A DNA stretch of 64,000 nt from Solibacillus sp. FSL R7-0668 (GTDB lineage: Bacteria; Bacillota; Bacilli; Bacillales_A; Planococcaceae): positions 684,001 to 748,000 of the forward strand of contig NZ_JBBOUU010000001.1 in NCBI RefSeq assembly GCF_038006205.1, written 5' to 3'. The notes beneath the pieces were generated by a model. It made no database searches, had not been told where the DNA came from, and was given only the letters and a program-made list of their open reading frames with translations. Positions 1,456 through 57,750 of this stretch are shown one piece after another; positions within the stretch are counted from its first letter, which is position 1, and each line of letters starts with the position of its first letter. A program made the translations under genes and the position numbers.

Positions 1456-1571
1456 CGAACATAAAACTGTTGAAACCGAGCATAAATACAGAAAATCGAG
1501 CACAAACACATCAAAATCGATCATAAAAATAAAAAATCGAGCACAAAACCTCGAAAACCGAGCATATCTCA
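1456..1571 (+). repeat. Array 1: six 20-21 bp units with core CGAGCATAAA
   Basis: Cores start at 1456, 1477, 1497, 1518, 1538 and 1559, so spacing is 21, 20, 21, 20, 21. Core variants are CGAACATAAA, CGAGCATAAA, CGAGCACAAA and CGATCATAAA, each preceded by a short A run; the 5-7 bases after the core vary. A leader GGAGGTTTTTGG precedes the first unit and a C-rich tail (with CCCCC and CCCC runs) follows the last. It occupies the gap between degV and the NERD gene. Open frames across it on either strand are artefacts of the periodicity. Function unknown. Confidence 0.9.
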
Positions 1572-1737
1572 TGAGCCCCCATAGCCCCAGAGAAATCAAA
1601 TATAATCTGCGAAACTCCATACTCATCAAAATCAAAACTGTCGATTTCACCATGTTTTCCACGACAAAAAGAAATTTTCGCATAAAGGATTCCACGCAAA
1701 ATGCTTTTATTTTATGCTATTGGTGGAGGGGATGGAG

Positions 1738-2676
1738 ATGCAAAAATCTGAGCACTATGTATTCATGGAGGCGCTTGTTCGCAGGATTTCCGAGCAGGAT
1801 GAGGAAGCACTGAAATTTCAAGAAGAATTTTATCGTCTGCAAGCTGGACTAGCGGGAGAAAGAAAGCTAAAAGCGACGCTAGAAGACTATTATTTTAGAT
1901 CGGATTTTGAGATTTTGTATAATTTTGAATGCACCAATCCGCGTGGGTTCACTCATCAAATCGATGCGTTACTCATTACACCGCACTTTATACTTATTTT
2001 CGAGGTCAAGCAAATGTCGGGCAGCCTCTATTATAAGCCAGCTGTTCAGGAATTTTATCGTGTAACTGATCAGGGTGTGGAAGAAAGTTTCCCCAATCCA
2101 TTCGATCAGGTATATCGCCACCAGTTGTTTATTGAACAATTATTACGGCAAACCGCAGTTGCAATCCCCGTACGGCATATAGTCGTCATCGCAAATTACC
2201 GAGCAAAACTTGATAATGCTTTTGAAGCGATGCCAATCCTTCACTTAAGCAGCCTACCTAAATTTCTAGAATCCTTATATGAGCAGTATCCGGATACCAT
2301 GCTCAATACTCGTCAAATTACTGCGCTTTTTACCAGCATTCAGCAGCGCCATCCACCTCGTCGTCGAATTGAAGCAAGTCGTCTGAAGACAGGTGTGTTT
2401 TGTAAGCATTGCGAGGCGCTGGGTTCGATGTTCTTCTATCATGGAACCTGGCACTGCAAGTATTGTCAAACGAAGTCGATCGATGGAATCCTTGAAGCGT
2501 TGCAGCATTATCGCATATTAATCGGTCCGCATATTTCGAATCGAGCATTTCGCGATTTTTTGGGGATTACAAGTAGACATGCTGCTACTAGACTGCTATT
2601 AAAACTCAATTTAGAAGCGATGGGACATGGAAAAAGTCGCTATTATGTCATTCCAGAGCTTATAGTTTACGAATAA
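1738..2676 (+). CDS. NERD-domain (nuclease-related) protein with C-terminal zinc ribbon
   Basis: A 312-residue protein; I chose ATG 1738 because GGTGGAGGGG at 1722-1731 sits correctly for it (ATG 1732 is the alternative). Residues about 40-150 match the NERD domain, a restriction-endonuclease-like fold: a conserved Asp in HQIDALLITPHF near residue 76 and the E-x-K of FEVKQ near residue 90 are the expected catalytic-type residues. A CxxC...CxxC zinc ribbon (CKHC, CKYC) lies near residues 222-245, and a helix-turn-helix-like tail follows. NERD proteins are thought to process DNA, but biochemical data are few. The gene is absent from this position in B. subtilis and is bracketed by two repeat arrays in the same orientation, which suggests insertion. 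Not essential to competence as far as known. Confidence 0.8.
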   Translation: MQKSEHYVFMEALVRRISEQDEEALKFQEEFYRLQAGLAGERKLKATLEDYYFRSDFEILYNFECTNPRGFTHQIDALLITPHFILIFEVKQMSGSLYYKPAVQEFYRVTDQGVEESFPNPFDQVYRHQLFIEQLLRQTAVAIPVRHIVVIANYRAKLDNAFEAMPILHLSSLPKFLESLYEQYPDTMLNTRQITALFTSIQQRHPPRRRIEASRLKTGVFCKHCEALGSMFFYHGTWHCKYCQTKSIDGILEALQHYRILIGPHISNRAFRDFLGITSRHAATRLLLKLNLEAMGHGKSRYYVIPELIVYE

Positions 2677-2696
2677 ATAGGAGGTAAATGGTAAAA

Positions 2697-2813
2697 CGAG
2701 CATAAATCTTGAAAATCGAGCATAAAACAGAAAAAACCGAGCATAATTTTCAAAAATCGATCACAAATAACAAGAATTCGAGCATAAATCCATTAAAACC
2801 GAGCATAAACTGC
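2697..2813 (+). repeat. Array 2: six 20-21 bp units with core CGAGCATAAA
   Basis: Cores start at 2697, 2717, 2738, 2758, 2779 and 2800 (spacing 20, 21, 20, 21, 21). The leader GGAGGTAAATGG resembles that of array 1, and a C-rich tail follows the last unit. The array starts about 20 bp after the NERD stop codon and ends about 90 bp before comFA. Confidence 0.9.
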
Positions 2814-2836
2814 ACGGATCCCAGAAACCACAGAAA

Positions 2837-2867
2837 CCCCACCTACCCGAGCCTCCCGATCAACCCC
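2837..2867 (-). other. Possible G-quadruplex motif on the minus strand, upstream of comFA
   Basis: On the plus strand four C runs, CCCC (2837), CCC (2846), CCC (2855) and CCCC (2864), are separated by 5, 6 and 6 bases. The minus strand therefore fits the G3+N1-7 four-run pattern. The surrounding 70 bp are far more GC-rich than the rest of the window. Structure formation is untested. Confidence 0.5.
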
Positions 2868-2902
2868 AGCCACCGAAAACCCCAATATAAAGGAGAATTC
2901 AA

Positions 2903-4297
2903 TTGAAGCAACTCAAATCCCCTCATTTCAAAGCCTACACCGGGTGCATTCCGGAGCCTAAAATAGAGAATTTCTTCACCGGCCGTATTTGGTCACGCCA
3001 TAGTACACCGTTTCCTCAAGCGAAAATCAATACGTATGTTACGCACAACTTTCTCACCAAAAGCCCTGCCGTCACGACAACGCCCAAGTTAAGATGCAAC
3101 CGCTGTTTCAACACGACACCGCATAAGTTTGTTGCTTTTCCGTGTGCGAAATGCCAGCAAATTTGTCATTACTGCCGCCACTGCATTACGATGGGGCGCA
3201 TGTGTAGCTGTGACGACCTCATTACGTGGACGGGTCCAAGCTATTCCGTCAAACGAGCGAACCCGCAGTTTACTTGGGATGGAACGCTCACACCGCAGCA
3301 GCAAAAAGCCGCGAATGAATTAACCGAAAGCCTTCAGCAAAATCGCCATCATCTTATTCACGCCGTTTGTGGAGCTGGAAAAACAGAGATCTTATTTGCC
3401 GCCATTTACAAAGCACTCCTTCAAAATAAAAGAGTTTGTGTCGCCACGCCTCGAACAGATGTGGTACTTGAACTTTATCCTCGTTTTCAACAAGTATTTC
3501 AAAATATGACGATTCATGCGCTATACGGCGGTGCTGAGCCCGATAGCCAGTTTGCGCAGCTCGTATTAGCGACAACTCACCAATTGTATCGCTTTGAACA
3601 GGCCTTTGATGTGATGATTGTCGATGAGGCGGATGCGTTTCCATATACCTATGACGAGGCATTGCAGCGCGCAGTATTAAAGGCCAAAAAGCCCCACGCA
3701 CCAATTGCCTTTGTAACAGCAACACCCTCATCAAAGCTACTTACCCAGCAGCAAAAGGAAGGCTGGGGCTACTCGTTTATCGCACGGAGATTTCACGGAT
3801 ATTTATTACCAGTGCCGCAATATCATTCGCTATGGAGCTATAAAAAAGCATTTACGAAAAATCGAATTCCGCAAAAGCTTCTGCAATGGGTAACGAAGCG
3901 CCTCGAAAAAAATGAGCCCTTTCTTCTATTCTTTCCGACAATTGAATTAATGGAATGTGCCGCACCACTATTTCAAAAAATCGAGCCGACAATCGAAAGT
4001 GTTCATTCCGAAGACCCGATGCGTAAAGAGAAAGTACTCCAGCTGCGCAACGAACAGCGCAAGGGCCTATTAACAACGACGATTTTGGAGCGAGGCATTA
4101 CGATTAAAAATGTACAAGTTGCGGTAGTGGGCAGTGAAAGTCCGATTTTTACAGCGAGCGCACTGATCCAAATTAGTGGACGTGTCGGGCGCAATCCGCA
4201 GTATCCAGATGGTGAAATTGTCTTTTTTCATCATGGCATCACATTGGAGATGGATCGTGCGCGCAAAAAAATACAGGAGATGAACCGCCATGAATAA
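2903..4297 (+). CDS. comFA: ComFA, DEAD-box-type ATPase for DNA uptake
   Basis: A 464-residue protein from TTG 2903, chosen because AAAGGAG at 2890-2896 is ideally spaced. The N-terminal quarter carries a dense cysteine cluster (CNRCF, then CAKC, CHYCRHC and CSC), the zinc finger typical of ComFA. The helicase core follows with Walker A in VCGAGKTE near residue 154, a literal DEAD box in VDEADAF near residue 238, the SAT-like VTATPSS and a C-terminal QxxGRxGR-type motif (QISGRVGR). ComFA is a membrane-associated motor that helps pull single-stranded DNA through ComEC during transformation. It overlaps comFC by 8 bp, so the two are one transcript; comFB is missing between them. A C-rich leader and repeat array 2 lie just upstream, unlike in Bacillus. 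Confidence 0.95.
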   Translation: MKQLKSPHFKAYTGCIPEPKIENFFTGRIWSRHSTPFPQAKINTYVTHNFLTKSPAVTTTPKLRCNRCFNTTPHKFVAFPCAKCQQICHYCRHCITMGRMCSCDDLITWTGPSYSVKRANPQFTWDGTLTPQQQKAANELTESLQQNRHHLIHAVCGAGKTEILFAAIYKALLQNKRVCVATPRTDVVLELYPRFQQVFQNMTIHALYGGAEPDSQFAQLVLATTHQLYRFEQAFDVMIVDEADAFPYTYDEALQRAVLKAKKPHAPIAFVTATPSSKLLTQQQKEGWGYSFIARRFHGYLLPVPQYHSLWSYKKAFTKNRIPQKLLQWVTKRLEKNEPFLLFFPTIELMECAAPLFQKIEPTIESVHSEDPMRKEKVLQLRNEQRKGLLTTTILERGITIKNVQVAVVGSESPIFTASALIQISGRVGRNPQYPDGEIVFFHHGITLEMDRARKKIQEMNRHE

Positions 4298-5425: not shown

Positions 5426-5435
5426 AAAAGTGCTA

Positions 5436-29610: not shown

Positions 29611-29752
29611 TGATGTTTGAACTACCATTTATATGGTTCATCATCATAAGTTGGAGATGACATGCAAATTCAGTCATTTATGCATTCAATTCGTTTCAAA
29701 AATGCTTTATTATGTGCGTTCATACTGAGAAAAATGGTAAAATACGGTTAAT

Positions 29753-29870
29753 CGAGCGTAAATTTCAAAAACCGAGCATAAAGTTCTCGAAAACGAGCGT
29801 AAAATTAAAAATTCGAGCATAAAGAATTCGAAACCGAGCGCAAAAATAGAATACCGAGCATATTTCCACG
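29753..29870 (+). repeat. Array 3: six 20-21 bp units with core CGAGCATAAA
   Basis: Cores at 29753, 29773, 29794, 29814, 29835 and 29855 (spacing 20, 21, 20, 21, 20). Half the cores are CGAGCGTAAA or CGAGCGCAAA. The leader includes AAAATGGTAAAATACGG; the last unit ends CGAGCATATTTCC like array 1. It lies about 140 bp downstream of the HNH gene. Confidence 0.9.
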
Positions 29871-29960
29871 CAAAGTGGTCATGCATTCCGACTATCTATA
29901 AACGATTGTGAAAAACAACCCCATAATTCGGTGATGAGCCTATGATTTGTAAAAAAGTAA

Positions 29961-30220: not shown

Positions 30221-30335
30221 CGCAAATATATGTAGAATATCAATATCGCAAATAAACTCTGAAAATCGCAAATATCCCCACAATTTCGCAAATAAAATTC
30301 AAAAGTCGCAAATATCCCTTAAAACACACACATTT
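30221..30335 (+). repeat. Array 5: CGCAAATAAA-class array with 20 bp period
   Basis: Cores CGCAAATA at 30247, 30267, 30287 and 30307 are spaced exactly 20 bp. A degenerate sixth position falls near 30327, and one further core lies upstream at 30221 (26 bp away). Same architecture as the CGAGCATAAA arrays but with a different core; the same class recurs at 57636. It lies about 200 bp upstream of the first DndB-like gene. Confidence 0.8.
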
Positions 30336-36031: not shown

Positions 36032-39000
36032 TTGAGTAAAATCAAAAATAGAAAAAATAAAATTACTAAAGTAACAATGAGCACAGCGTTAGTAGCAAGT
36101 TCAATTTCTTTCGTTGCTCCTTTGGCATCGGCGGCACAGTTTGCAGATGTGAAGCAAACGAATACTCACTACGATGCGATTAACGAATTAGCAGGTCGTG
36201 GCATTATCAACGGTTATGAGGATGGTTTGTTTAGACCAGAAAATTTTGTGTCACGTGCACAGGCAGCAAAAATTATTGCTAAAACATTAAATTTAGATGT
36301 AAGTAATGTTGAAAATCCTCAATTTAAAGATGTGAATATAAACAGCGGATATTATCCTTATATCGCTGCTTTAGCAAATGCCGGCATCATTAATGGCTTT
36401 GATGGTAAATTTAATCCTTCTGGAAATATCACACGTGGCCAAATGTCAAAAATTATTGCCCGTGCTTTTGAACTAACTTCAACAGATGAATTGACGTTTA
36501 AAGATGTTCCGGCTGATCATGAGTTTGCGCCGTATATTAGTGCTTTAGCCGAAAAAGGTATTACATTAGGTACAGGAAACGGCAAATTTGCGATGCACGA
36601 ACTTGTAACACGTGGTCAGCTAGCTTCTTTTGTGACACGTGCCGAAAAAGCAACAGCAGAGCCAGTCGTGACAACTGTTTCAGGTACAATAGATAAGATT
36701 TCTACTAATTCCGTACAAATTGATGGGAAAACATATCAAGTTTCAGAAACAGCAGATTTCTTAACTTCGGAAATTAATGAAGTAGCCTTGCAGGAAGCTG
36801 AAGTAATTGCAACAGTTAAAGATAATGTGATTACGCAAGTAGACGAACTAACAGTAGTAAATGGTGGACAATTTGACGCGCAAGGCTATTCTTTTGCAAA
36901 GTTATCACTTAATCAAACACTAACACATATATCCAATGTAAAGGCAACAGAGATTAATCATGAATTACCAACGTCTCGTGTTACATACGAAAATGTTTCA
37001 GCAGAAAAGCTAAATGCATACGCAGCAGCAGTTTCAGTGGCGTCATTAAATAATATGGTCGCAATTGAGCAGCAAACGGCATTGCAATTCCTAAACTCGA
37101 TAATTAATACACTTCGATTAAACGCAAGGGCGGCAAATATCGAAGCCAACGCAGAATCAGCAATTCAAACAATTGATGCACCAAATACTTCGCAATTGAA
37201 TTTAACAGGTGCATTCAATCGAGTTAATATCCCTGCGAGTGCACATATTGCCGGTAGAGGCTCTGTTCATTTATTGACGGCACCTGCGCAAAACTTACAG
37301 GGTATTACAGTTGCACCGGGATTTGTTATTCAACAGGTGAATCTTAATAATGTATTGTCTTCATGGAAAGAGGCACTTGATTTGCTAAATCAAAATCAAG
37401 GAAATTCTGGTCAAAACCAAGGGAATAATACAACAGATCCAGGTACTGATACAAACCCTGGAGATAATAACAATACGGGTGGAAATACAGATCCTGTACC
37501 TCCAATCGATACAACGGAACAAGATAAAATTACAGTAAACGGAATCGTGGCAAAGGTAAAAGAACAATTAGTGAATAGTTCTGCAACAAATGAAACAACT
37601 ATGTCAGACATCAGCATGTTATTGAATGCATTAGCCACAGATGGTGCAACGATTACTTTAACCAAATACACAATGAATCAAGCACAGGTGAATCAAGCCG
37701 GATCTATAGAAATGGGCATTACGATTGTTAAAGGGAATGTGATAGAAACGTTTGAAACAGCTATAGCCATTGTAGCTTTACCAGAAGTACAAGATCCAGA
37801 AACACCGCCACAGGAAGGAAATGCTGAAGACCAAGCAGCAGTAAATACGGTATTAGCAGAAGTGACGACTGCGCTAGACCAACTTTCTGTAACGAATGAA
37901 ACTACACAAACAACAATCGAAACAGTACTAATTGGATTTGAACAAAATGGTGTGGAAGTGTCATTGTCGAAATTTAATATGAACCAAGCTCAAATTGGAA
38001 AGATGGGTAATATTGACCTTGAGGTGACAATTCGTAAGGGTAGCGTGTTAGAAACAATTGTAGTATTGAAAGAAATTGCAGCTTTAGTTGAAGAACCACC
38101 AACACAATCGGGAGACCAGGACCAAGAGGTGGTCAACAATGCATTAGAAAAAGTACAACAATTACTAACGGATTTAGTGGTATCAAATGACATAAGTGAT
38201 GATGCAATTAAAACAGCCTTAGCAGCACTTCAAGACGAGGGCGTTGTCATAACATTATCAAAATATAGTCTAGAAAAAGCTAAACCGGGTATACAAGGCA
38301 GTGTAACAGTTGGCGTAACAGTTAAAAAAGGTCAGGTAAGTGAAACATTTGAAACGACTAAAACTATTGAGGCATTGCCAGAAGTAGTAGATCCAGGCGA
38401 TTCAGGAAATACTGAAGAGGCGGATAAGTTAGCGGTTCAGAGTGTTAAACAGGAGATTGAAGCTATATTAGCAAACGCAACCTATAGTAATCATACAGAT
38501 GGAGTAGCCATTGAGGCTTTATGGCATGCTCTAGATAAGCAAGGGACAGCTGTTGGAATAAATAACTTCGTAAAAACAGAAGCGACGATTGATACAGCGG
38601 GTACAATTCGATTTGAAGTTAGCATTGTTAAAAACAATGTAAAGGAAATAATCGCTATTTCAAAGGAAATTGCAAAACTTAATGCTCCGCCGGCTACAGA
38701 GGAAGTATTTACTAGTGTTCCTGTACTAGATGAAAATCAAATGATTCAATTTGGTGGTGAAGAGAGAAGAGTTGAGCAGGCTTCCATTCAAGCACTTCAA
38801 TCATTACAGGTAATGGAATCAACTAATCAAGGTGCTATACAGTTAGTAATGGGAACGTCAGGTGATGGAGAAACAGTTGCGTTACAAGCAGTTACAATCA
38901 ATGCTCACGCAGGCACAGAAGTGCTTAACTTTAACGACATCCCAGCAAATGTAGGTGTAGCAATTATCGGGGATGATGTTACAGAAATTCAAAATCTCCA

Positions 39001-42000
39001 AAATACGCAAAGTGTAACAATCGAAACAGCTGGAGCGATTGCCTTTACGGGTGATACGAATTTAAATGACATTACATTAACAAATGCAACAGATGTTACA
39101 GGTCTTGTAGCAGGCCGATTATTTGCGCAAAATTCAGTTGGAATGACATTTGATGCGTCGACATCAATAGCTACAGCAGAATTTACTGGTGTCGATGCAG
39201 TATCAGGCTTAAATGCAACAACAGCAGTATTTGAAACGAATAGTAGTTTAGGTCTATCAAATGTGAAAGCCTCTACCATAACGATTAATGACAAATCTAC
39301 AGTAGCATCGAATTCATTTGCACGTGTAGCGGCGATGGGTGCTGTAGCGAATACATCGACAATTAAAATAACAGTTGAAGGCTCTACAGCGGAGGATTTC
39401 ATCATTAGCCGTGAGGATGCTATTGTAGATATTCAAAAAAATAATGTGATTTCTAATGTAACAATTAAATCAAATAATACAAGCTTAGTTATGAGTGAAA
39501 TTGGCTCATTAAGCGTAGAGGCAGGCGTTTCCTATTTACGCTTAGGTACAACTGATCAACAGGCAAAAATTAGCAAACTCGATTTAGACTTGGCAAATGA
39601 TGTGCATCTTGTAGGAAATGCTGTGATTGCTCAATTAAATATTGCACGCACAAATACAGCTGCAAAGGTAAAAACAGATTCAACAATTACATTTACCAAT
39701 ACAAATAATCCGGATGCGATTGAATCTGCAACTACTTATACATTAGTGCCAGGTACGATCTTAGGACGATATACAATTCCTAGTCTTCCTGCTAATACGT
39801 ATTACTCATTATTAACACATAACAATACGCCAGCAGCAACAATGCCGATTGGACAACTTAAGAAGTATACGACATATATGTTCCTAGATTCGACGATTAA
39901 GCAAGTTGCGCTCTACGATAGCTCTGGAAAAAATATTTCGTCTATCATAACAGATCCACTAACTCGACCTGCTATGGATGTATTTGATATTAGTGTGAGT
40001 TCAACTACATCAAAAGTGTTGATTAATGTCACGACACCAAATTTATCTGAATTAGCATCACGCTTTAAACATTTTGCAGTATTTACACATGGTAATACTT
40101 CTGGAGGCTATCGTGTATCAGAAGTATTATTTGAACGTGGCACTTTCTCAAGCGACTTTAAAATTACACCAAAATCTAATCCGCCGCATTTATTAGAAGT
40201 TCCTGCTGGATCAGTAAGTTCCATATCCAATGTTGTAATTGTAGCTTCAGGTTATGTTTATGATTCTATTTCGAGTAAGAATAAGGATCAAAAAATAGAG
40301 GTTTTAAAATCATTAGCTCAGCATGCAAAAACTAATAATGATCACAGTATTTTATATGATTATTTAACGACAACGATTGCGGTGGATGGTAAAACATACG
40401 ATAGTATTTTCATGGATTCGATTATCGATGAACTATTGTCTAACTCGATAACGACAATTGATGGCTTAATCCAATTTATAGAAAATAAAGGGTCATCCGT
40501 AACTTATAATAAAATTGTTTCAATAAGTGAATTATTGTTAAACGGAGATATAGTAGAAGTAAAAGGTGATGGAACAAACTCGAAGGTCAATATTGAAGGT
40601 TCTAATCTCCTTATTAACTCATTAGCAGATGGAACAGAAATTGTTACATTCAAAGACAGTGCTGGTAATTCTTCGATGTTAAAGGTAGTAGTTAATACTG
40701 CAGAATCGGATGAAAATAAAATTAAAGTAGAGCTTATTAAAACAGAAGTTTCTGCAAATACAGAGATTTTATCCGGTGATGCGCGCTTAGCCACAAAGGA
40801 TGGTAAAACTTATTTAATTCCAGCTACATTGGGCAATGAAACGATTATTTATACGCCAAACGCTTCAAGTTCAGTGGTAGGTACATTTGAAAAAGCGAAA
40901 ACAGATGGAAATAATGATTACCAACTAAGTAATGTAACACTGGTTAATGTATCGAAAGAAGCTTTAAATTTAACTGGCGATATTGCACGTCAAACACTAA
41001 CAAAGAGTGGCTATGTAACAACGGATAATGAAATTCATTTCTACGTAATAGATTCTAATGCTACTGGTTTATTAGATCAGTACAATATTACAGCAGGTGG
41101 TAAATCAACTGCTGTAGCATTAGTTGAAAATGCGGGTGCTGTTTCTGCGACTGTTGCGACGAAGCAATTTGATGTAGCAGACTTAGCAATAGGTCAGGTG
41201 AAATCGATTGAACCGACTACTGCTAACACAACAATGCATACGAGATTTACAGCAAATGAGGTAGCTATATTTGCAGAGAAAAATAGTAAAAACTCTACAT
41301 TTAAAGTAACATCGCAAGACAATAAGATTTCATTAATCAATGCTGTTGCTTCAGCAAACTCTGCGGTAGAGCTAGTAAATTCAACGGTTGTTAAGGTAGA
41401 TTTAACGGATAAATTAAATGGGGCATCTATTATTGCACCTAAAACAGCTGCTGGTGATTTAAAAGAAGACATTATTCGCTTTGTAGGCAATGTTGCATAT
41501 GCGACAGGAACAGGAAAGCAGCGAGTTGTACTATCGAACGGTAAGCAGCTTGAGGTGGAAGTTGTTCAGCAAGCGACAGAATACGTTATGACCATCGATG
41601 ATACGCTGAGTCAGACATCAATTGAGGCGGCTGATTTAGATTTACAAAATATTAGTACTATTCAAGTGAATGGTACATCGGCAACAGCTGTGAATGTAAA
41701 TAATACGTATCTATCAATTACAGCAATGGCTAATCAAAGCGGTAAAGTAGAACTTATTGTAACGGATAGCGATGGTAAAAAGGCAGTTGTTTATGTAAAT
41801 GTTACAAATGGTGCATTAGTTGATATTGATACGGTTACTGTCGGCGATCAGCTATACCGAGTGGCGAAAATATCTATTGATAAAGCTGACTTAGGATTTG
41901 CTGGAGATATTCAATCCATTTCAGAGCGAACAGAAGTGGCACGTGGTGTAAGTAAAGTGGATGTAGCAACAATTTATGCAACAGGTGCAGGCTACGCAAC

Positions 42001-45000
42001 ATTTACAGTATTAAGCACAGATAATAAAAAAGCGTTAGTAAACATCGAGGCTTCAAAATCTAGTACAACAAATGAAATAGAAGCGAAAGCAACGGTTGTA
42101 AAACATGATACAACGAATGTAGCAACAGGTGGCTTAGACAAAGCAATTGCAGCAGATGCAGTGGGTGCTGGCATTGTACGTATTGAAGGCAATGTTCTTT
42201 ACGCATTAAAAGAAGGGTCAGTTGATTTAGCGATTGCAGGTGAGTCGAAATTATTCTACCGCATCAGTGTTGTAAAAGATGAAACAACAGGCCAGTATTC
42301 GTTTACAGCGCCAGAGCTTGTTTCAAAAGCAGTTTATACAGCAACAGAGCTGGGTTTAACGGATATTACATCAGCGAGTTCATCGGATGAAGCAATTGCA
42401 ACAGTAGATTACGCATCAAATAAAATTACCATTACAACCCAATCTAAGGATGACGCAGGTCTAATTACAGTAAACGGACCAAATGGCCAAGCGTTCATTT
42501 ATATGAATAAAACAGGTAATACATTATATACTGAAATCGAAAAAGCAACTGCTAAAGTAGATGTAAGTACAGGTGGCTTATCAAATGTTAGTAGTTTAAA
42601 AGAATGGACAAATGAGGGAATTGTGCGTTCATATGAAGCAGGAACAGTTTTAGATTTCTTCGTAGTACAAAATGGTAATACATCGTATAAAGTGACAGAC
42701 ACTGCGGGCAAAACAACGATTATTAACTTACCTGTGACAAATAATCTAGTAGGGCATCGTGAAATTGAAGCGAAAGTAGTCAAAGAAGAAGTCGGTTCAA
42801 AATCAGGTAACCCAGAAATAATTACGCCACAGGACGGTGAAATTATTTCTGGTACTTCCGTTCGTTTATATAAAGAAGCAGATGCCAAGCAATATGCGTA
42901 CGCTATTAAGACAGGTGATACATTAGTTAAATTAGCTGATGGTACGCTTGTTAAATATGTAGTATCCATTTCAAATGGTTTATATGAGCTAACATCTGAA
43001 ACAGTAACAAATGGGGTAACGAAAACAGATACTGATCTAGATTTAAATGGTAACTTAACAATTACAGGAATCGATAGCACGATTGCGGCAGCAGTAGCAG
43101 TTGGTAAATCGATTACATTCCATGGTCAAGTTCAAGATGGCGTAACAACAGCTCTTGTAACAGATGGTACTAAAACAGTGCGTGTGAGAATTACCATTGT
43201 AGCTGGTTCGATGACAGTAGAACCGATTAAGCACATATTCAATACAGGAATTACAGCGATTAATATTCATGAAACAGCAAAGGATATTGCGTGGATCTCT
43301 CCAGATGGTAGTTCGATTTACCTGTTAAAAGAAGGTGTGTTCCGCTATATTGAGCATGATTCAAATTCAAATACGAAAATAGTAAAACAATTAACGATTA
43401 CAAAAGCAGGAACAGATTATACAGTAGCAGGTCCTGTTGAAGTAAATAGTGTTGTAAAAACGGCGGCAGACTTAGGGCTTGTAAACGCATTGCAGGTTCA
43501 AGGAGGCTACAATACAGATGTTGTATATGCAGGTATGGTAGGTACCGATTTTGTTGCTTACCAAACGGGTATAGGCCGTACAGATGTGACGGTAAAGGAT
43601 GGGCAAGGTCAATCTACCCTTCTTCATATGGATGCAGATGCGACACTCGTAGCAACAATTGCTGTAGCAGAAAAAGCGGATAATACCGTGTTTACTTTTG
43701 CAAAAGAAGATTATGATTTAACGGATTTGGTGAATATTACAATTGCGAACGCGGAGATTGCGCAAAAGCATAGTACAAATAACCAGCTCTATCTATTAAA
43801 AGCAGGTACGACGTATGCAACGTTAGATGATGGTGCTGGCAACAAGGCATTAGTCTCCATTACGGTTACAAAACCAGCTGATAAGTTAGTAGCAACAGTG
43901 AAAACGATTGTAAAAACAGCATCAGAACTAGCGGTAGGTGCAACAACGGTTTCGGCATTACCAGGTGCACAAACGGATACTTCAATTGTGCGCGTAGCAG
44001 GTAATAAAGTATATGCAGTGGGTGCCGGGGAAACGAAAGTTAAGTTAGATAATCAAATTGTAACGGTAATCGTAAAAGAAGAGGCAAATGCGTATTCAAT
44101 CACATTAGGTACGGTAGCGAACTTTATTGAAATACCGATTGGTGATGGCACGTATACATTAGCCGACCTGACAAATACAAACGCTGTTGTGATTACAAAG
44201 GATGATAAAGGTACCGCTGCTGATAAAACGGATGATCAATTAATTATTTCAGTAAACGCAGCAAATGGTGCATTAGATTTAACAATTACAGATAATACAG
44301 GTAAGAAAACAGTTCATCATATTAAGGTTGAAAATAATATCATTACAAAACCTCCAGTAACTGCTGTAAAAGTGTTAACGACATCTATTGCCGATCTGGG
44401 ATTAGCAAATATAGACAACGATGTGGTTCAGTTACATGGAGCAAACTTACATTTATTAAAAGAAGGTAAGGCAGCGTTAGAAGGTTCGAACGGTCTTGTT
44501 AATGTCAACGTAACACGTAATACTGCAACGAAATATTTAGAGGTTGCACAATCAATTGTTCAAAAAGAAATTAAAGAAACAATTACGGCTGATACGAATT
44601 ATGCATTTGTAGAGGAAGATGGAAAGAAATATATTCGTGCGTTACAAGAAACGAATACACCATCTATTTACTACACGACAAATTACCGAATTGCTGCGAA
44701 TACACAGCTAGTGAATGATGAATATGTGTTAACAGTGGAAGAACGTCATAAACAGGAGGTAGATTTTGCAAGCTATGGATTAACAGGTGCATTAACATTG
44801 CATTCGGAAAATGAAGATCTTGCGAAGGCAGAGCTTACAGCTGACAATAAGTTAGTTATATATGCAGGTGCAGGCCAAATAACACCAACAGGTACAACAA
44901 CGATTACAGCAAAGGACGCGTCAAACAAACAAATTACAATTAAAGTAACGCGTGCAGAAGACGGTAAGATTAGCTATGTAGTTCAAGGTCAAGTAGATGC

Positions 45001-48000
45001 AATAAAATTTGCAGATATTAACGTAACAGATGTAGCTACGAAACCAGTAACGGTAGAAGGGCATAATGAAGCGATTGTACAAGCGACTGTAACTGCAACG
45101 GGAATTTCACTTTCTGCTCAAACAACAGGCACAACAAGCCTACTTATTAAACAAGATAATGTAGTGAAAGCAATCGTCAATATTACAGTAGCGGATGGGA
45201 AAGCTGTAGCTACAGTTGTGAAGTATGATGGTACGGGCTTACAGGATGTTATTACAGGCGATGCTAATATTGTTCGTCAAGAAGGAACAGTATATTACGC
45301 GACTGGAGAAGGTGTTGTACTTTATGACAAAGGGACAACAGCAACACAATTACGCATCGTAAAAAATACGGAAACAAATCTATATTCAATTACGCCAACA
45401 AGCTTTGCATTAGCGAAAGGCGCAACAAATTTAGACTTAACGATTAATGGATCGACAACAGTAAATATTTCTAACTCAAGTGTTGTAGATGCCTATGTTG
45501 CAAATGGTGCGCTTTATATTGTCGGTAAGTCTTTAGGAAGTACAGATATTTTAGTGACAACTGGTGCCGATAAAGCGGTTGTTCATGCACATATGACAGC
45601 GAGTGGCTTAACAGCAAATGTGGTGAATAGCTTTACATCAACAGACACGTTTACAGGTACATTTGAAGGAAATCAATGGGTTCAAGTTCGTAACGATAAG
45701 CTATACGCATTAGCAGTTAAAACATCAACTATTAAAGCGGATGACACACTTGTAACTGCTGAAGTAACGCGTAATATTGATACAAATGAATTTGATGTGA
45801 AGTTAACGCGTGTGAAACATAAGTTTAATTCTGCTGTAACATTAGTTAGTGATGCAGGTGCTACTGAGGATGCGGTTATTAAAATTAACGGCGATACAAT
45901 TTATGCGAAAGCTGTTGGAAAAACGCAAGTATTTGAAAACGGTACTGTACGTAATATCGAAGTAATTGCAAATGCAGACGGTACTTACAAAATTGCTGTC
46001 ACGGAAGCTAAAGTACAAAAAATTATTACAGGTGCAGATTTAGGCTTAACGTTATCTGCTTCATCAAATGTAGAGATTCATGCAATTGCAGGGTCGAATA
46101 TTTTAGAAACACAAGTTATCGACAATAACTTATACATTTACGCGCTTGGAACTGGTACAGCTGAACTTGTTATTGATGGCAAGACGATAGTTCATGTGTC
46201 TATTTCATCATCAAATAATGTGTTGGCAATTGCGGAACCACAGATTGCCAAAGCAACAATTACAACAGGAACGATTGAAAATATAGACCCTACTGATGGG
46301 AAAATTCGCATCGACGGAAATGCGATTTATGGCTTGCAAGAAGGCGTTTCAATAGTTAAAAAAACGGAATCTGGTAAGGCGACATTACACAAAGTTCTAG
46401 TAGTACGTGAGAATAATGTATTAAAAGTATCGACATCAGTAATAGAAAAGGCTTTCTTAACGGGTGATTTAACGGCTATTGATAATACAATCGTTCGTGG
46501 AGGCAATGGCAAGCTGATTGCTAAAGCTACAGGCGAAGAAACATTTATCCATGATGGAGTAACATACCGAGTTGAAGTAGATGCTGCAACTGGTGATATG
46601 AATATTGAAGTGTTACAAACAGATGTGATTGATTTAAGTTCAGTATTAGCTTCAATTACAGGTACGCCTTCATCAACGTTGTTACAAATAACTATGGATG
46701 GATCGAAGCTAAATGTAACGGCTGATAAAGAAGGTACAGAAATTATCGAAGTTTCCGGTAAATCTGTAGCAGGCCCTGACAGTACAATTCATGTGAAAGT
46801 AGTTGTTACAAAAGAAGGCACAGTATATAAAATTGCCTATGAGCTTATTCGAACAGAGCTTACGACAACGCAATTAGGGTTCCATCCTGTAAGTGTGACA
46901 CCAATCACGAATGGCTATGTAAAAATAGATGGTTCAAGTATTGTCATTTACCCAGGCAAGCAAGATGGTAGTACTATTACGAAAAAACAATATTTCACAG
47001 TGTCAGGAAATGGCGGTACACAGGCAATTTATAGCTTAGATCTTGATGGTATTACATTAGTTTCAAATGTAGTTTCTGGTTATAAAGTGGAGCCATTACA
47101 CCGAGATATAATGGTTTCAGAATTACAAATGAACCCAGTACAGGTTGCGATTGATGGAACAGCGAAATATTCAATTAAAACGAAGAATGGACAAGAAGTA
47201 TTAGAGGTTGTATTAAATAATACTAATAAATCTTATATTATTGTTCGAAGTGAAGATGGCTCATACAAATCAATCGAGGTTCAAGCTACGGAAAATGGAG
47301 CGAATGATTATACGACCAGTCATACAATTCACGGTACGATGGCATTAAGTAAGGTGACGAATATGTCTCCAACGGGTAATGTAAAATCCGTAAATGATGG
47401 ATCAAAATCAGTACTATATGCAACAGCTGCTGGTAAGTTTGCATATGAGGAAGATGGCAAGCTATACAATGCTGAAGTGACTGAATCCAATGGTAAATTT
47501 AGCTTTACTACCGGCCAAGTTGTTACGGTAGCATTAACGAATCCTCGATTAGTAGACGGTGAGTTAAATATTCAAGTAGATAGCTCAGGTACGAATGCGA
47601 TATCAAAAGTTGGTGAAGCAATTTATGCAACGGATAGTGGCTACAAGAAGGTAACCGCAACATTAAATGTTAATCAACAAGTGGAGGCTATAATAGAGGA
47701 TGTACCTTCTAAGACATTACCTAATACAGTCGTAAGTGCAACAATATTAAAAGCGCCAGCATCAATTAAACTAGATGGAACTACTGTTTTTGGTGGTACG
47801 GTTGCAGAATTTGCTGATACTGTAGATGCTAAAGATAAAGTCATTATTGTTTCAACAGTTGATGGTGATGGCCGAGTAACGCTTTATAAAGCGATAGGTG
47901 AAGTTGATACAGCTACTAATGAAGTGAGCTATGTATTTACTGCGATTACTAGTGATATTTTTGCTGATATAGATTGGGTAAATTCAACAAATTATACGGT

Positions 48001-48514
48001 TACAAAAATTGATGGTGAGTCTGTAGCTCGTGTGAAGGATAATAAAGTATACTTCATTGGCGCAGGAGAGGCTTTAATTATATTTAAATCAGAGACTGGT
48101 TTAGAAAGAACCGTAAAATATGAAGTTAATCCAGATACGTTTGAAGTAACTGTAACAAAAGCAGAAAATGTTATTTATTTCACTCGTGAACAAGTGACGG
48201 ATACGAGAATTAATTTAACATTTGATTTAAATGTCACTAATTTCCCAGATGGAGTAGATAATTTTATTGTAGCTCCAAAGGACCCACAGGTAATTACAGG
48301 AGTTACGAGACAAGATAAAAATAAAATCTTAATTAAAACTAATGAAATAGGTGCAGCAGATAATAGTGAGACTTCCGGTAATCTCTATATTCAATTACCT
48401 GAATTTTCATTTGCACAAGATATTACAGTAGCGTTGAAGGTGAAAAAGGAAGGTGAAGGATACACAATAACCTTTGATTCGACGGACTTTAAATTTATTC
48501 AAAAAACAAATTAA
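36032..48514 (+). CDS. Giant (4160 aa) S-layer-homology surface protein with tandem beta-rich repeats
   Basis: TTG 36032 follows AGGAGG. A signal peptide occupies residues 1-35 (ends near PLASAAQ). Three SLH domains follow at about 36-93, 95-150 and 155-212, each with the ITRGQ/VSRAQ-type motif that docks on pyruvylated secondary wall polymer. Residues about 453-490 are an Asn/Gly/Thr/Pro linker. Four repeats of about 95 residues (490-890) share YT/FNMNQAQ and ETFETxxxI elements. A beta-strand-rich part (890-1350) has VTIETAGAIAFTGDTNLND-like ladders. From about 1550 to 4050 many 80-110 residue modules recur, often opening TAxDLGL (TATELGL, TAADLGL, TSIADLGL, ITGADLGL) with an acidic xIxRIxGNxxY core. 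No LPXTG, no catalytic motif. It is probably a wall-bound adhesin or filament-associated surface protein. A SigD-like promoter and the setting between flaG and fliS tie it to motility. Confidence 0.9.
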   Translation: MSKIKNRKNKITKVTMSTALVASSISFVAPLASAAQFADVKQTNTHYDAINELAGRGIINGYEDGLFRPENFVSRAQAAKIIAKTLNLDVSNVENPQFKDVNINSGYYPYIAALANAGIINGFDGKFNPSGNITRGQMSKIIARAFELTSTDELTFKDVPADHEFAPYISALAEKGITLGTGNGKFAMHELVTRGQLASFVTRAEKATAEPVVTTVSGTIDKISTNSVQIDGKTYQVSETADFLTSEINEVALQEAEVIATVKDNVITQVDELTVVNGGQFDAQGYSFAKLSLNQTLTHISNVKATEINHELPTSRVTYENVSAEKLNAYAAAVSVASLNNMVAIEQQTALQFLNSIINTLRLNARAANIEANAESAIQTIDAPNTSQLNLTGAFNRVNIPASAHIAGRGSVHLLTAPAQNLQGITVAPGFVIQQVNLNNVLSSWKEALDLLNQNQGNSGQNQGNNTTDPGTDTNPGDNNNTGGNTDPVPPIDTTEQDKITVNGIVAKVKEQLVNSSATNETTMSDISMLLNALATDGATITLTKYTMNQAQVNQAGSIEMGITIVKGNVIETFETAIAIVALPEVQDPETPPQEGNAEDQAAVNTVLAEVTTALDQLSVTNETTQTTIETVLIGFEQNGVEVSLSKFNMNQAQIGKMGNIDLEVTIRKGSVLETIVVLKEIAALVEEPPTQSGDQDQEVVNNALEKVQQLLTDLVVSNDISDDAIKTALAALQDEGVVITLSKYSLEKAKPGIQGSVTVGVTVKKGQVSETFETTKTIEALPEVVDPGDSGNTEEADKLAVQSVKQEIEAILANATYSNHTDGVAIEALWHALDKQGTAVGINNFVKTEATIDTAGTIRFEVSIVKNNVKEIIAISKEIAKLNAPPATEEVFTSVPVLDENQMIQFGGEERRVEQASIQALQSLQVMESTNQGAIQLVMGTSGDGETVALQAVTINAHAGTEVLNFNDIPANVGVAIIGDDVTEIQNLQNTQSVTIETAGAIAFTGDTNLNDITLTNATDVTGLVAGRLFAQNSVGMTFDASTSIATAEFTGVDAVSGLNATTAVFETNSSLGLSNVKASTITINDKSTVASNSFARVAAMGAVANTSTIKITVEGSTAEDFIISREDAIVDIQKNNVISNVTIKSNNTSLVMSEIGSLSVEAGVSYLRLGTTDQQAKISKLDLDLANDVHLVGNAVIAQLNIARTNTAAKVKTDSTITFTNTNNPDAIESATTYTLVPGTILGRYTIPSLPANTYYSLLTHNNTPAATMPIGQLKKYTTYMFLDSTIKQVALYDSSGKNISSIITDPLTRPAMDVFDISVSSTTSKVLINVTTPNLSELASRFKHFAVFTHGNTSGGYRVSEVLFERGTFSSDFKITPKSNPPHLLEVPAGSVSSISNVVIVASGYVYDSISSKNKDQKIEVLKSLAQHAKTNNDHSILYDYLTTTIAVDGKTYDSIFMDSIIDELLSNSITTIDGLIQFIENKGSSVTYNKIVSISELLLNGDIVEVKGDGTNSKVNIEGSNLLINSLADGTEIVTFKDSAGNSSMLKVVVNTAESDENKIKVELIKTEVSANTEILSGDARLATKDGKTYLIPATLGNETIIYTPNASSSVVGTFEKAKTDGNNDYQLSNVTLVNVSKEALNLTGDIARQTLTKSGYVTTDNEIHFYVIDSNATGLLDQYNITAGGKSTAVALVENAGAVSATVATKQFDVADLAIGQVKSIEPTTANTTMHTRFTANEVAIFAEKNSKNSTFKVTSQDNKISLINAVASANSAVELVNSTVVKVDLTDKLNGASIIAPKTAAGDLKEDIIRFVGNVAYATGTGKQRVVLSNGKQLEVEVVQQATEYVMTIDDTLSQTSIEAADLDLQNISTIQVNGTSATAVNVNNTYLSITAMANQSGKVELIVTDSDGKKAVVYVNVTNGALVDIDTVTVGDQLYRVAKISIDKADLGFAGDIQSISERTEVARGVSKVDVATIYATGAGYATFTVLSTDNKKALVNIEASKSSTTNEIEAKATVVKHDTTNVATGGLDKAIAADAVGAGIVRIEGNVLYALKEGSVDLAIAGESKLFYRISVVKDETTGQYSFTAPELVSKAVYTATELGLTDITSASSSDEAIATVDYASNKITITTQSKDDAGLITVNGPNGQAFIYMNKTGNTLYTEIEKATAKVDVSTGGLSNVSSLKEWTNEGIVRSYEAGTVLDFFVVQNGNTSYKVTDTAGKTTIINLPVTNNLVGHREIEAKVVKEEVGSKSGNPEIITPQDGEIISGTSVRLYKEADAKQYAYAIKTGDTLVKLADGTLVKYVVSISNGLYELTSETVTNGVTKTDTDLDLNGNLTITGIDSTIAAAVAVGKSITFHGQVQDGVTTALVTDGTKTVRVRITIVAGSMTVEPIKHIFNTGITAINIHETAKDIAWISPDGSSIYLLKEGVFRYIEHDSNSNTKIVKQLTITKAGTDYTVAGPVEVNSVVKTAADLGLVNALQVQGGYNTDVVYAGMVGTDFVAYQTGIGRTDVTVKDGQGQSTLLHMDADATLVATIAVAEKADNTVFTFAKEDYDLTDLVNITIANAEIAQKHSTNNQLYLLKAGTTYATLDDGAGNKALVSITVTKPADKLVATVKTIVKTASELAVGATTVSALPGAQTDTSIVRVAGNKVYAVGAGETKVKLDNQIVTVIVKEEANAYSITLGTVANFIEIPIGDGTYTLADLTNTNAVVITKDDKGTAADKTDDQLIISVNAANGALDLTITDNTGKKTVHHIKVENNIITKPPVTAVKVLTTSIADLGLANIDNDVVQLHGANLHLLKEGKAALEGSNGLVNVNVTRNTATKYLEVAQSIVQKEIKETITADTNYAFVEEDGKKYIRALQETNTPSIYYTTNYRIAANTQLVNDEYVLTVEERHKQEVDFASYGLTGALTLHSENEDLAKAELTADNKLVIYAGAGQITPTGTTTITAKDASNKQITIKVTRAEDGKISYVVQGQVDAIKFADINVTDVATKPVTVEGHNEAIVQATVTATGISLSAQTTGTTSLLIKQDNVVKAIVNITVADGKAVATVVKYDGTGLQDVITGDANIVRQEGTVYYATGEGVVLYDKGTTATQLRIVKNTETNLYSITPTSFALAKGATNLDLTINGSTTVNISNSSVVDAYVANGALYIVGKSLGSTDILVTTGADKAVVHAHMTASGLTANVVNSFTSTDTFTGTFEGNQWVQVRNDKLYALAVKTSTIKADDTLVTAEVTRNIDTNEFDVKLTRVKHKFNSAVTLVSDAGATEDAVIKINGDTIYAKAVGKTQVFENGTVRNIEVIANADGTYKIAVTEAKVQKIITGADLGLTLSASSNVEIHAIAGSNILETQVIDNNLYIYALGTGTAELVIDGKTIVHVSISSSNNVLAIAEPQIAKATITTGTIENIDPTDGKIRIDGNAIYGLQEGVSIVKKTESGKATLHKVLVVRENNVLKVSTSVIEKAFLTGDLTAIDNTIVRGGNGKLIAKATGEETFIHDGVTYRVEVDAATGDMNIEVLQTDVIDLSSVLASITGTPSSTLLQITMDGSKLNVTADKEGTEIIEVSGKSVAGPDSTIHVKVVVTKEGTVYKIAYELIRTELTTTQLGFHPVSVTPITNGYVKIDGSSIVIYPGKQDGSTITKKQYFTVSGNGGTQAIYSLDLDGITLVSNVVSGYKVEPLHRDIMVSELQMNPVQVAIDGTAKYSIKTKNGQEVLEVVLNNTNKSYIIVRSEDGSYKSIEVQATENGANDYTTSHTIHGTMALSKVTNMSPTGNVKSVNDGSKSVLYATAAGKFAYEEDGKLYNAEVTESNGKFSFTTGQVVTVALTNPRLVDGELNIQVDSSGTNAISKVGEAIYATDSGYKKVTATLNVNQQVEAIIEDVPSKTLPNTVVSATILKAPASIKLDGTTVFGGTVAEFADTVDAKDKVIIVSTVDGDGRVTLYKAIGEVDTATNEVSYVFTAITSDIFADIDWVNSTNYTVTKIDGESVARVKDNKVYFIGAGEALIIFKSETGLERTVKYEVNPDTFEVTVTKAENVIYFTREQVTDTRINLTFDLNVTNFPDGVDNFIVAPKDPQVITGVTRQDKNKILIKTNEIGAADNSETSGNLYIQLPEFSFAQDITVALKVKKEGEGYTITFDSTDFKFIQKTN

Positions 48515-50650: not shown

Positions 50651-50676
50651 GGGATGGGGGGCGATGGCTGGGGTTT

Positions 50677-50790
50677 TATGCGCGGTTTTCTAGGATTTGT
50701 GCTCGGTTTTTTGATTTTATGCTCGAATTTTTGAAGTTTGTGATCGAATTTATTAGTTTTATGCTCGAATTTCGGTATATATGCTCGCTT
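50677..50790 (-). repeat. Array 4: six 20-21 bp units, inverted orientation
   Basis: Read on the minus strand it is the CGAGCATAAA array. Plus-strand ends of the core complement fall at 50684, 50705, 50725, 50746, 50767 and 50787 (spacing 21, 20, 21, 21, 20). On its downstream side (minus strand) is a C-rich segment containing CCCCAGCCA, a match to the tail of array 2. Confidence 0.9.
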
Positions 50791-54942: not shown

Positions 54943-54950
54943 AGCCAATC

Positions 54951-54995: not shown

Positions 54996-55023
54996 ACAAT
55001 GAATAAACTTCGGAGGAACAGAT

Positions 55024-56131: not shown

Positions 56132-56137
56132 TGAATA

Positions 56138-56172
56138 AAGGGAATGTCCGAGAATAGGGCATTCCCTTTTTT
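56138..56172 (+). terminator. Terminator after prfB
   Basis: AAGGGAATGTCC pairs with GGGCATTCCCTT around a 7-base loop, then T residues. Confidence 0.9.
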
Positions 56173-56275
56173 ATAGTGAAAATTTAGTTAGATGTAATTG
56201 GGACTTGTCAAATAGATGAAGATATGTGATAATAAATACGAACGAATGTTCTTTTTTATAAAGGAGGAATTTTCC

Positions 56276-56629: not shown

Positions 56630-56630
56630 C

Positions 56631-57122
56631 TTATAGTAAAGCTTTGCGTTGTAATATGAGATTTTTATAATAAAGAACAGCTCTTACGTATTGCTGATTA
56701 AATGATTTCAAATGGACAGGGAAAATGCATTCTGAGCCATTGACAAATGTCACCAATGTCGATTCGTTCACTTCTTCAATATTAATAATGGCATTGACGG
56801 TCACCCAAATATTTTGCTTAGAACGAGGTGAAAATAAAGGGAATATAACGCAAGGATCGCCAAAATTATAGGCAACCATAATCGGTACTTTATGTCGATT
56901 ATGCCCTAAAAATTCCTTTGCCTGCTTTGTCGTCGCCTCAAATGTCGAACCATTTAATGAGCAGGTCTGTCGAATCACTCGGAGCGGTGGGTAGGACATG
57001 GTCGTTTTGCCGTGCTTGTCTAACACTTCAGTAAAAACCTTACCGGAAATGGGCTGCGAAATTAAACAATACGTCGAGTTGGTAATATAGTACTTATTGT
57101 GTTGTTTGGGATTTTGAACCAT
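56631..57122 (-). CDS. comK: ComK-family competence transcription factor
   Basis: A 163-residue minus-strand protein. It follows ComK along its length: ISQPISGKVFTEVLDKHGKT, RVIRQTCSLNGSTFEATTKQ (ComK has RSCRFFGSSYAGRKAG), HKVPIMVAYNFGDPCVIFPL (ComK: HKPPIMVDPSNQIFLFPT), NIWVTVNAIINIEEVNES, and SFNQQYVRAVLYYKNL (ComK: SFENQVYRTAWL). ComK binds A-rich/T-rich boxes and turns on comE, comF, comG and recombination genes. It is about 30 residues shorter than the B. subtilis protein, mainly at the C-terminus. With comFA and comFC in the same window and a second ComK-like gene at 32781, this organism probably has a regulated competence pathway. Confidence 0.82.
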   Translation of the reverse strand: MVQNPKQHNKYYITNSTYCLISQPISGKVFTEVLDKHGKTTMSYPPLRVIRQTCSLNGSTFEATTKQAKEFLGHNRHKVPIMVAYNFGDPCVIFPLFSPRSKQNIWVTVNAIINIEEVNESTLVTFVNGSECIFPVHLKSFNQQYVRAVLYYKNLILQRKALL

Positions 57123-57302
57123 TTTAATCTCCTTTCTTATGAAAAAATACTTAAATTTCCACTATATATCTAAATTAATGCATAAAAAGTCAAAAATCAA
57201 CATTATTTTTAGAAAATTCTGTCACTAGATAATTATTCAGAATATATTGCAAATTAAATGGAGTTTATCTTATAATGGAAAAAAGAGATCGAGGTGATAT
57301 CG

Positions 57303-57545
57303 ATGGATAAATATTATTCATATACAGACTTTTTAAAAGCAGTCGGCCAGCAGCCAACAGGAAACCAAGCAGAAAAGTTGTTAAGTGAAATTTATTTAGA
57401 TTTATTTATAAGTCGATTACAACGTATACACCGTATCGAACAATTAAAAAAGCTAATCGATAATTCATTAGATCAGAAAAACGAACGAGATTTCCATACG
57501 TATGCTTCCGAATTAAAAGAACTAATGGAAGCACCCATTTCTTAA
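57303..57545 (+). CDS. IDEAL-domain protein
   Basis: An 80-residue protein; ATG 57303 is preferred because GAGGTG at 57291-57296 is its ribosome site. The C-terminal half carries the IDEAL-type helix pair (EIYLDLFISRLQRIHRIEQL, then IDNSLDQKNERDFHTYASEL): a small domain found at the C-terminus of many short Bacillales proteins, including ComK-linked YpiB-type proteins. Function unknown; no partner evident. Divergent from the ComK-family gene, with a 180-bp shared upstream region. Confidence 0.75.
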   Translation: MDKYYSYTDFLKAVGQQPTGNQAEKLLSEIYLDLFISRLQRIHRIEQLKKLIDNSLDQKNERDFHTYASELKELMEAPIS

Positions 57546-57550
57546 TCCGA

Positions 57551-57581
57551 AAAAGCTACCTAAATGGCTAGGTAGCTTTTT
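57551..57581 (+). terminator. Terminator after the IDEAL-domain gene
   Basis: AAAAGCTACCTA and TAGGTAGCTTTT are perfectly complementary over a 6-base loop, then T. Confidence 0.9.
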
Positions 57582-57635
57582 CTGTGCGTTCAAATAAAAT
57601 GAAAAATAGGGTACTTGTAAATAGATGGTGGAAAA

Positions 57636-57750
57636 CGCAAATAACTTTGATTATTTCGCAAATAAACTTTGAAAACCGCAAATATCCACGCGAAAACCAC
57701 AAATAAAACTTTAAAGTTGCAAATAAAATCAAAAGGTCGCAAATATCCTT
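57636..57750 (+). repeat. Array 6: six 20-21 bp units of the CGCAAATAAA class
   Basis: Cores at 57636, 57657, 57677, 57698, 57718 and 57738 (spacing 21, 20, 21, 20, 20); the fourth and fifth are degenerate (CACAAATAAA, TGCAAATAAA). A TGGTGGAAAA leader precedes it and the last core ends CGCAAATATCC, as in array 5. It sits about 80 bp upstream of the uvrB promoter. Confidence 0.88.

Follow-up and report, generated by a model that had tools for sequence, protein, structure and literature searches.

Arrays of a short word repeated every 20-21 bp, and the genes for proteins that combine a NERD domain with a zinc ribbon and a winged-helix-like C-terminus, very probably form cognate pairs of reader and array in Solibacillus sp. 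FSL R7-0668 and its relatives, with the arrays as putative multi-site binding platforms. The window analysed here is a stretch of 64,000 nucleotides (bases 684001-748000 of the main contig; this contig has 3.99 Mb and the whole genome, labelled G000, 4.23 Mb), in which six such arrays occur and two of them flank a NERD gene. The pairing is supported by computation, namely by the adjacency of genes and arrays, matching words, direct repeats, the predicted dispersal of one word, joint change of protein and array, and the retention of active-site residues. The repeats alone were already known; we rate the pairing of reader and array as the new part.

Tandem repeats of 20-21 nt in Bacillales were called enigmatic by Subirana & Messeguer (2021; PMC8161180), who proposed that the repeat sequence may be recognised by one protein or a set of them. 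The main text of that paper names no partner, and the term NERD does not occur in it. The published repeats and the arrays described here have in common a constant size of 20-21 nt, several families per genome, a non-coding location and a short conserved sequence in each repeat. Constant size and several species-specific families per genome are also what is known of the 20-21 nt Bacillus repeats, and both were found here. The arrays thus belong to a published class (PMC8161180), contrary to an earlier note on the window, made from the letters of the sequence, which knew of no named element that matched. What is added to that description is a candidate protein family, arrays in cis and matched words.

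In the mechanism that we propose, the arrays would be multi-site binding platforms for chromosomal proteins that join a NERD domain to a zinc ribbon and a C-terminal winged-helix-like region. The part of each protein that comprises ribbon and winged helix would bind one word; this end is the putative reader because it and the array change jointly (see below). With a spacing of 20-21 bp, bound protomers would all lie on the same side of the helix, and four to seven of them, most often six, could assemble side by side and bring together as many NERD domains. Most paralogues are encoded next to an array that has their own word, and many genomes have more arrays of it scattered between genes.

NERD genes adjoin arrays of matching words

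The NERD gene of the window (1714..2676, + strand) lies between an upstream array of six units (1456..1568, +) and a second six-unit array that starts 20 bp downstream of the gene in direct orientation (2697..2809, +). Both belong to family A, one of three families into which the clear arrays of this genome fall: A (CGAGCATAAA), B (CGCAAATAAA or CGCAAATATC) and C (CGCACGTAAA). The frame CG-NNNN-TAAA is common to all three.

The proteins encoded beside 196 arrays, 371 in all, were grouped by blastp, and the NERD family, with the window gene in it, came out as the largest recurrent group. Its 24 entries stem from 11 genomes and represent about 11 distinct genes, several of them reached from more than one array. 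NERD matches were identified in 15 of the 16 genomes of the genus, up to seven in each and some of them weak or fragmentary, and in 35 of 40 Planococcus-group genomes, with up to 11 each. NERD loci are in several cases syntenic across species.

Within the genus, a 20-21 bp array lies no more than 450 bp from the gene, on one side or both, at 25 of 30 NERD loci, compared with 7 of 120 far windows taken from these loci. The array score threshold was 3; in 300 shuffles the median score was 1.5, the 95% point 2.0 and the maximum 12.5. The five misses are two loci with an array farther out or unclear (L422, L423), two partial genes (L427, L439) and L428. Of 30 Planococcus-group loci, mostly the best match per genome, 27 have an array (upstream at 20, downstream at 23), compared with 1 of 60 far windows; this lone control match belongs to L476, where a contig end truncates the locus.

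Wherever arrays lie on both sides of the gene, which is the case at 23 of the 54 loci examined, they are direct repeats (23/23). One of these loci, in G001, has word A on one side and word C on the other. The words follow the paralogue groups and include TGRCTAAAT, TTGGCTAGT, AAAGTAGAA, TTCTAATA, GTGACGAATA, TAATCCTCA, CGCTCRTAA, CGGACAGTA, GGAAAGTA, AGCGTATTT, CGCGCGCAT and CGCAAATAA, among others.

The NERD protein

The window gene encodes a protein of 320 amino acids with a NERD domain (PF08378, E 3e-19 in a Pfam scan), a Cys4 zinc ribbon and a winged-helix-like C-terminus, the last two named by eye from alignment and model. The four cysteines of the zinc ribbon are conserved in the aligned NERD proteins, and D84, E97 and K99 are kept in 34 of 36. 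We take these three residues to fit the expectation for a PD-(D/E)XK fold. The alignment did not include L416 and L433, which have in-frame stops, L427/L440, a single gene split in two, the weakly matching L428, the truncated L439, or many of the Planococcus-group paralogues.

An AlphaFold2 model of the window protein has a mean predicted local distance difference test score (pLDDT) of 90. Foldseek returned no PDB match for it at E <=0.001; the best match, at E 0.0019, is an R2 retrotransposon protein, followed by nickases and other restriction-like nucleases. Restriction-like endonuclease domains are among the top matches at E 0.002-0.05, with low template modelling (TM) scores. Weak sequence matches to PglW and MADS6 were also found, and the Pfam scan found no kinase domain in the window protein.

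NERD-domain proteins (PF08378) include PglW of the bacteriophage exclusion (BREX) and phage growth limitation (Pgl) systems and SmdA of Staphylococcus aureus. The NERD domain is common to these and to the protein described here, whereas the latter has 320 amino acids, a zinc ribbon and a winged-helix-like end, and is encoded beside phased arrays. In a tblastn search at E 1e-5, the protein matched none of 72,556 plasmid and 50,697 phage records (from which near relatives of the window genome may be left out). By the records searched, the locus does not look like a plasmid or phage element.

Putative reader end and array change together

One NERD locus is common to G105, taken as Planomicrobium sp. 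Y74, and G112, taken as Planococcus halotolerans. The two are 95.6% identical over the 1000 bp before the gene and 93.5% over the 1000 bp after the array. Within the gene, identity falls from 93.5% in the N-terminal coding part to 55.4% in the reader end, and the array itself stands at 64.1%. All five words of the array carry the same C-to-A change (CGGACAGTA versus GGAAAGTA). In G105 and G040, a pair with the same word, reader (83%) and array (92%) are the best-kept parts, with 76% in the N-terminal part and 52% over the following 1000 bp, a poorly alignable flank.

Reader DNA can be aligned in 48 of 48 same-word and in 1 of 10 different-word syntenic pairs, counting those that are 80% or more identical on the left. 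Word labels for this comparison were set by hand, with L423 and L483 left out, and pairs and genomes are related, so that p values are not independent. An orthologous array of the Planococcus group has kept its core at 50 of 50 bases and its linkers at 27 of 44. Another orthologous array of this group has a different word in each unit, and at the orthologous site of L193 and L207 the species differ in the word. Across 25 Planococcus-group genomes, the number of NERD matches goes with the count of arrays found by a sequence-only model, R1 (Spearman 0.85, uncorrected for kinship); arrays are present in 13 of 17 genomes with at least two NERD matches and in 0 of 8 with fewer.

The dispersal of one word was predicted. 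It was set beforehand that pairs of AAAGTAGAA should occur only in G003, G005, G006, G007, G010 and G014, the flank being known in five of these and G010 being included by similarity. Adjacent pairs numbered 15, 48, 32, 40, 45 and 24 in these genomes, respectively. Elsewhere we identified one pair, in G011, and none in nine genomes; the reversed control gave none in any of the 16. Among the matches listed, some pairs adjoin a NERD gene and most are located elsewhere.

Several observations weigh against the pairing of reader and array. The corresponding prediction for GGCTAWWA had a mixed outcome: the second NERD gene of the Solibacillus sp. FSL R7-0668 genome has its word only adjacent to itself, and pairs numbered 6 in G010, 4 in G011, 7 in G014 and 1 in G007, with 21 in G012, which was not exactly predicted (the other ten genomes have 0-2, the same as the reversed control at 0-2). 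Neither NERD gene of this genome adjoins any of its 22 family B arrays of at least four units; the family B word does adjoin NERD genes in four Planococcus-group genomes. At the window locus itself the words vary by species (A and A here, A and C in G001, C and C in G002) and the reader is still alignable. Two proteins (L474 and L475) have one word and divergent readers. Over 35 proteins, reader identity was no better a predictor of the word than the N-terminal half (partial correlation 0.07; 41 of 500 permutations as high).

The position of arrays is unrelated to gene orientation in this genome. Two NERD proteins depart from the conserved active site: L489 lacks E97, and L425 (in G015) lacks the stretch from D84 to K99, yet its genome has dispersed CGCTCRTAA arrays and L425 itself is array-adjacent. 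The persistence of arrays in G015 beside a NERD protein without the active-site stretch speaks for a binding role there.

Arrays in the window and across the genome

All six arrays reported in the earlier note exist, at the positions given there or a few bases away. Four have the family A core CGAGCATAAA at a spacing of 20 or 21 bp: the two beside the NERD gene, a third of six units within a miniature inverted-repeat transposable element, or MITE (29753..29864, +), and a fourth of six units on the minus strand, for which no MITE ends were seen (50675..50787, -). The remaining two have the family B core CGCAAATA, one with five units spaced by 26, 20, 20 and 20 bp (30221..30316, +) and one with six units spaced by 21, 20, 21, 20 and 20 bp (57636..57747, +). 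Chains of at least four units at 18-23 bp spacing, of either word and on both strands, did not occur in any of 20 first-order Markov simulations of the window. The strict period that had been described is borne out by five arrays; it is broken at 30221 because of the 26-bp first gap.

The sequence-only model R1 was built from an alignment of 16 arrays and run on the whole genome. It identified 63 arrays at E <=0.001 and 87 matches at E <=1, of which 70 were inspected for words. Arrays with at least four units number 22 in family B and 18 in family A. Among the 48 arrays with at least four family units, unit number spans four to seven and six is the commonest (25/48). All 201 neighbouring pairs in these arrays are spaced by 20 or 21 bp, in ratios of 80:4 for family B, 42:36 for A and 17:22 for C; the unit finder admitted 19-22 bp, and gaps outside this range would be missed or split. 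Thus the spacing holds genome-wide, whereas the fixed unit number that had been proposed does not: exactly six units in five of six arrays is correct inside the window, and six is only the mode outside it. A single shared design must likewise be given up, given three word families in this genome and many more in relatives.

Units of an array are 0.76-0.96 identical to one another at word positions 5-7 and 0.25-0.30 in the linkers (positions 10-14); positions 0-4 served for classing and are not evidence of conservation. The earlier suggestion of selection on a protein-DNA array retains the support of phasing, free linkers and a conserved core, and gains a candidate protein; its argument from a fixed unit number falls away. 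By eye, a leader AATGG...GG...AT mostly precedes the first unit of arrays in this genome, and units of families A-C have two A-rich stretches about 10 bp apart. No palindrome was seen by eye in the repeat unit.

The arrays are intergenic according to a crude caller of open reading frames (ORFs), with 20 of 64 overlapping a predicted ORF of 71-140 codons (one of 244), which we take as mostly spurious. Flanking genes are evenly oriented around the 64 arrays placed (co-directional 16 and 22, convergent 14, divergent 12), and the relation to gene orientation that the earlier note had thought worth mapping is absent in this genome. These 64 come from the inspected matches; one without a flank and others with fewer than two classed words were left out.

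We considered identity as arrays of clustered regularly interspaced short palindromic repeats (CRISPR) and rejected it, as the arrays have a 10-bp core with linkers of 10-11 bp and no cas family was found among the ten window proteins scanned.

A MITE carries some of the arrays

The third array of the window lies in a MITE with ISL3-type terminal inverted repeats (29635..29940, +). About ten family A arrays of the genome are inside this element of about 300 bp, complete or partial, with terminal repeat GGCTCATCACCATAAGTTGGGGATG and a degenerate partner. Exact 8-bp duplications flank two of eight aligned copies (TGTTTATT and AAATATTT, by eye) and are imperfect or unclear in the rest. A remnant of an ISL3 transposase gene on the main contig (C1:3431574-3431735; L024, L046) is followed by the terminal repeat of the array-carrying MITE (to 3431793). 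The other ISL3 match of the genome, on C2, has no such terminal repeat in its locus. These copies have a likeness to ISL3-family MITEs in the terminal inverted repeats, which resemble the end of the ISL3 remnant, and, in two of them, in the exact 8-bp duplications.

The arrays as a whole differ from such elements in that only part of them have these ends and the same ends carry different arrays. Copies with MITE ends also carry family C arrays and at least one family B array (the latter by eye), and arrays without MITE ends exist, for example those at 1456, 2697 and 50675 of the window. Thus, the MITE carries some arrays and does not define them. Like arrays also occur in other genera, and we rejected a passive MITE as the whole story. 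The earlier note took its reading to fail if the arrays matched a documented repeat family such as a characterised MITE. This is partly the case, through the published class and the roughly ten family A copies in a MITE, which nonetheless does not explain the arrays.

Arrays in related genomes

Model R1 matches 4 of the 16 genomes of the genus and, under stricter filters, 108 of 200 genomes of the family in 15 of 19 genera; the family-wide counts rest on 15 scored candidates per genome. Matches in other genera are arrays of other words with the same period (loci L144-L158 left out). The pattern CG....TAAA at 21 bp was found in 15 of 398 genomes of the class and its reversed control in 9 of 398, in one of them (G061) 25 times. 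In the listed matches, the four letters left free by the pattern mostly vary little or not at all from one unit of an array to the next (CGGTGG, CGCTGA, CGACGA, CGCGGA and others). G+C-rich words such as CGCGGGTAAA also occur.

A scan of contigs for four units gave at least 120 stretches, and the 80 inspected include arrays in Planococcus, Planomicrobium, Lysinibacillus, Sporosarcina, Neobacillus, Rossellomorea, Fictibacillus and others. Stretches from Nostoc, Bacteroidota and many metagenomes within the same 80 have linkers that are by eye as uniform as the words, and were rejected as simple tandem repeats, as was the match of the CG....TAAA pattern in G459. In viral contigs, 65 stretches fit a three-unit pattern. 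Around 48 chains in other genera, flanking genes are co-directional in 17 and 8 cases, convergent in 17 and divergent in 3, with a flank missing in 3; these rest on crude ORF calls, and at least one chain is a wrong-strand artefact.

Alternative explanations and possible functions

Passive spread of the arrays as MITEs or satellites, with the NERD gene merely a frequent neighbour, would account for the family A copies within ISL3-type ends, some with 8-bp target duplications, for the transposase remnant that shares the terminal repeat, and for the indifference of arrays to the orientation of genes. We consider it very improbable, given other words within the same ends, arrays without ends, NERD adjacency far above that of control windows in two genera, matched words that change jointly with the reader, and an orthologous array whose core is fully kept and whose linkers are not. 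The NERD protein could also be a transcription factor, with the arrays as its operators and the scattered ones as its regulon. Its helix-turn-helix-like end would suit this, and the array upstream of the gene at 20 of 30 Planococcus-group loci fits autoregulation. This is unlikely, as arrays show no promoter bias (in this genome 12 lie between divergent and 14 between convergent genes; for the 48 chains in other genera these numbers are 3 and 17, respectively) and a repressor needs no kept nuclease motif.

DNA shape alone, by phased A-tracts, gyrase or nucleoid wrapping, could be what matters, with the word not read. The paired A-rich stretches of families A-C and a 3' intergenic bias of arrays in other genera are consistent with this. 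The conservation of word positions 5-7 over linkers and the existence of G+C-rich words make it highly implausible. Action as RNA, in the form of transcribed small RNAs or sponges, has been suggested for such repeats, and 52-nt repeats of B. coagulans are transcribed (PMC8161180). For the arrays described here it is hardly to be expected, since arrays in this genome have no preferred orientation with respect to genes, helical spacing of 20/21 bp has no evident use in single-stranded RNA, and the words are matched by a DNA-binding-like protein.

If NERD readers and arrays are cognate pairs, as we favour, they may serve one of several purposes. Anchoring or organisation of the chromosome comes first, as a tentative candidate. 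Homing-like spread, in which cutting and recombination would propagate array and gene, is conceivable, if somewhat doubtful. Defence or self-marking seems less likely, and gene regulation rather improbable. The pairs might also represent a new kind of chromosomal element, a satellite with its own reader, in which reader end and array change like a cassette, words are replaced in concert and arrays become more numerous as readers do, perhaps through cutting and copying directed by the arrays. This is speculative and somewhat doubtful.

Several known systems combine repeated sites with a cognate protein. Plasmid iterons with Rep, ParB-parS, and repetitive extragenic palindromes (REP) or bacterial interspersed mosaic elements (BIME) with REP-associated tyrosine transposases (RAYT) resemble the arrays in a site spacing of about two turns or in the dispersal of intergenic repeats. 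The system described here differs in that the neighbour is a NERD gene, no match was found in the plasmid records searched, and no palindrome was seen by eye. Swaps of specificity domains in restriction systems are similar in that a conserved nuclease-like part is combined with an exchangeable recognition part and the target word changes along. In contrast to these, the target arrays are in the host's own genome, beside the gene. Among the open-licence papers listed by our searches, none connects tandem arrays with NERD proteins (by titles and abstract starts) and none is relevant to the array words (by titles).

With the proposed pairing, a published repeat class with a strong size constraint and no known function or partner gains a candidate protein partner and becomes a testable system. 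Dozens of natural pairs of reader and word are available in two genera, some at orthologous loci with a changed reader end. If the pairing is true, it would supply small modular DNA-binding domains, each with a target word that can be read from the adjacent array, and would point to rapid co-evolution in bacteria of a DNA-binding protein and its repeated chromosomal sites.

Neighbouring genes and other features

The array-NERD-array block of the window lies between a DegV family gene upstream (499..1341, +) and a DEAD/ResIII helicase gene downstream (2903..4297, +), which is presumably ComFA-like. In G074 (L211), a lone array of another word is located between the DegV and helicase genes, and there is no NERD gene; this would fit loss by recombination between direct arrays. 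Two loci of the Planococcus group (L189 and L204) have two successive arrays of different words, CGACGAT and then CGCTGAT.

An IS3-like insertion sequence of 1.39 kb was identified within family A arrays at three loci of the genome (C1:183250-184609, 1544054-1545366 and about 224080-225420; L009, L017 and L123). It encodes ORFs of 110 and 282 amino acids, its family was named by eye, and two copies are 96% identical over 1394 bp. The third copy is known from its end only, between array units; the loci were chosen for their arrays, hence we claim no preference.

Arrays 29753 and 30221 of the window have an HNH endonuclease gene on their 5' side (28870-29610), and just 3' of them is a gene (30531-31613) for a protein with the DndB domain PF14072, which is associated with DNA sulfur modification. 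The window also contains a very long ORF of 4160 codons (36032-48514).

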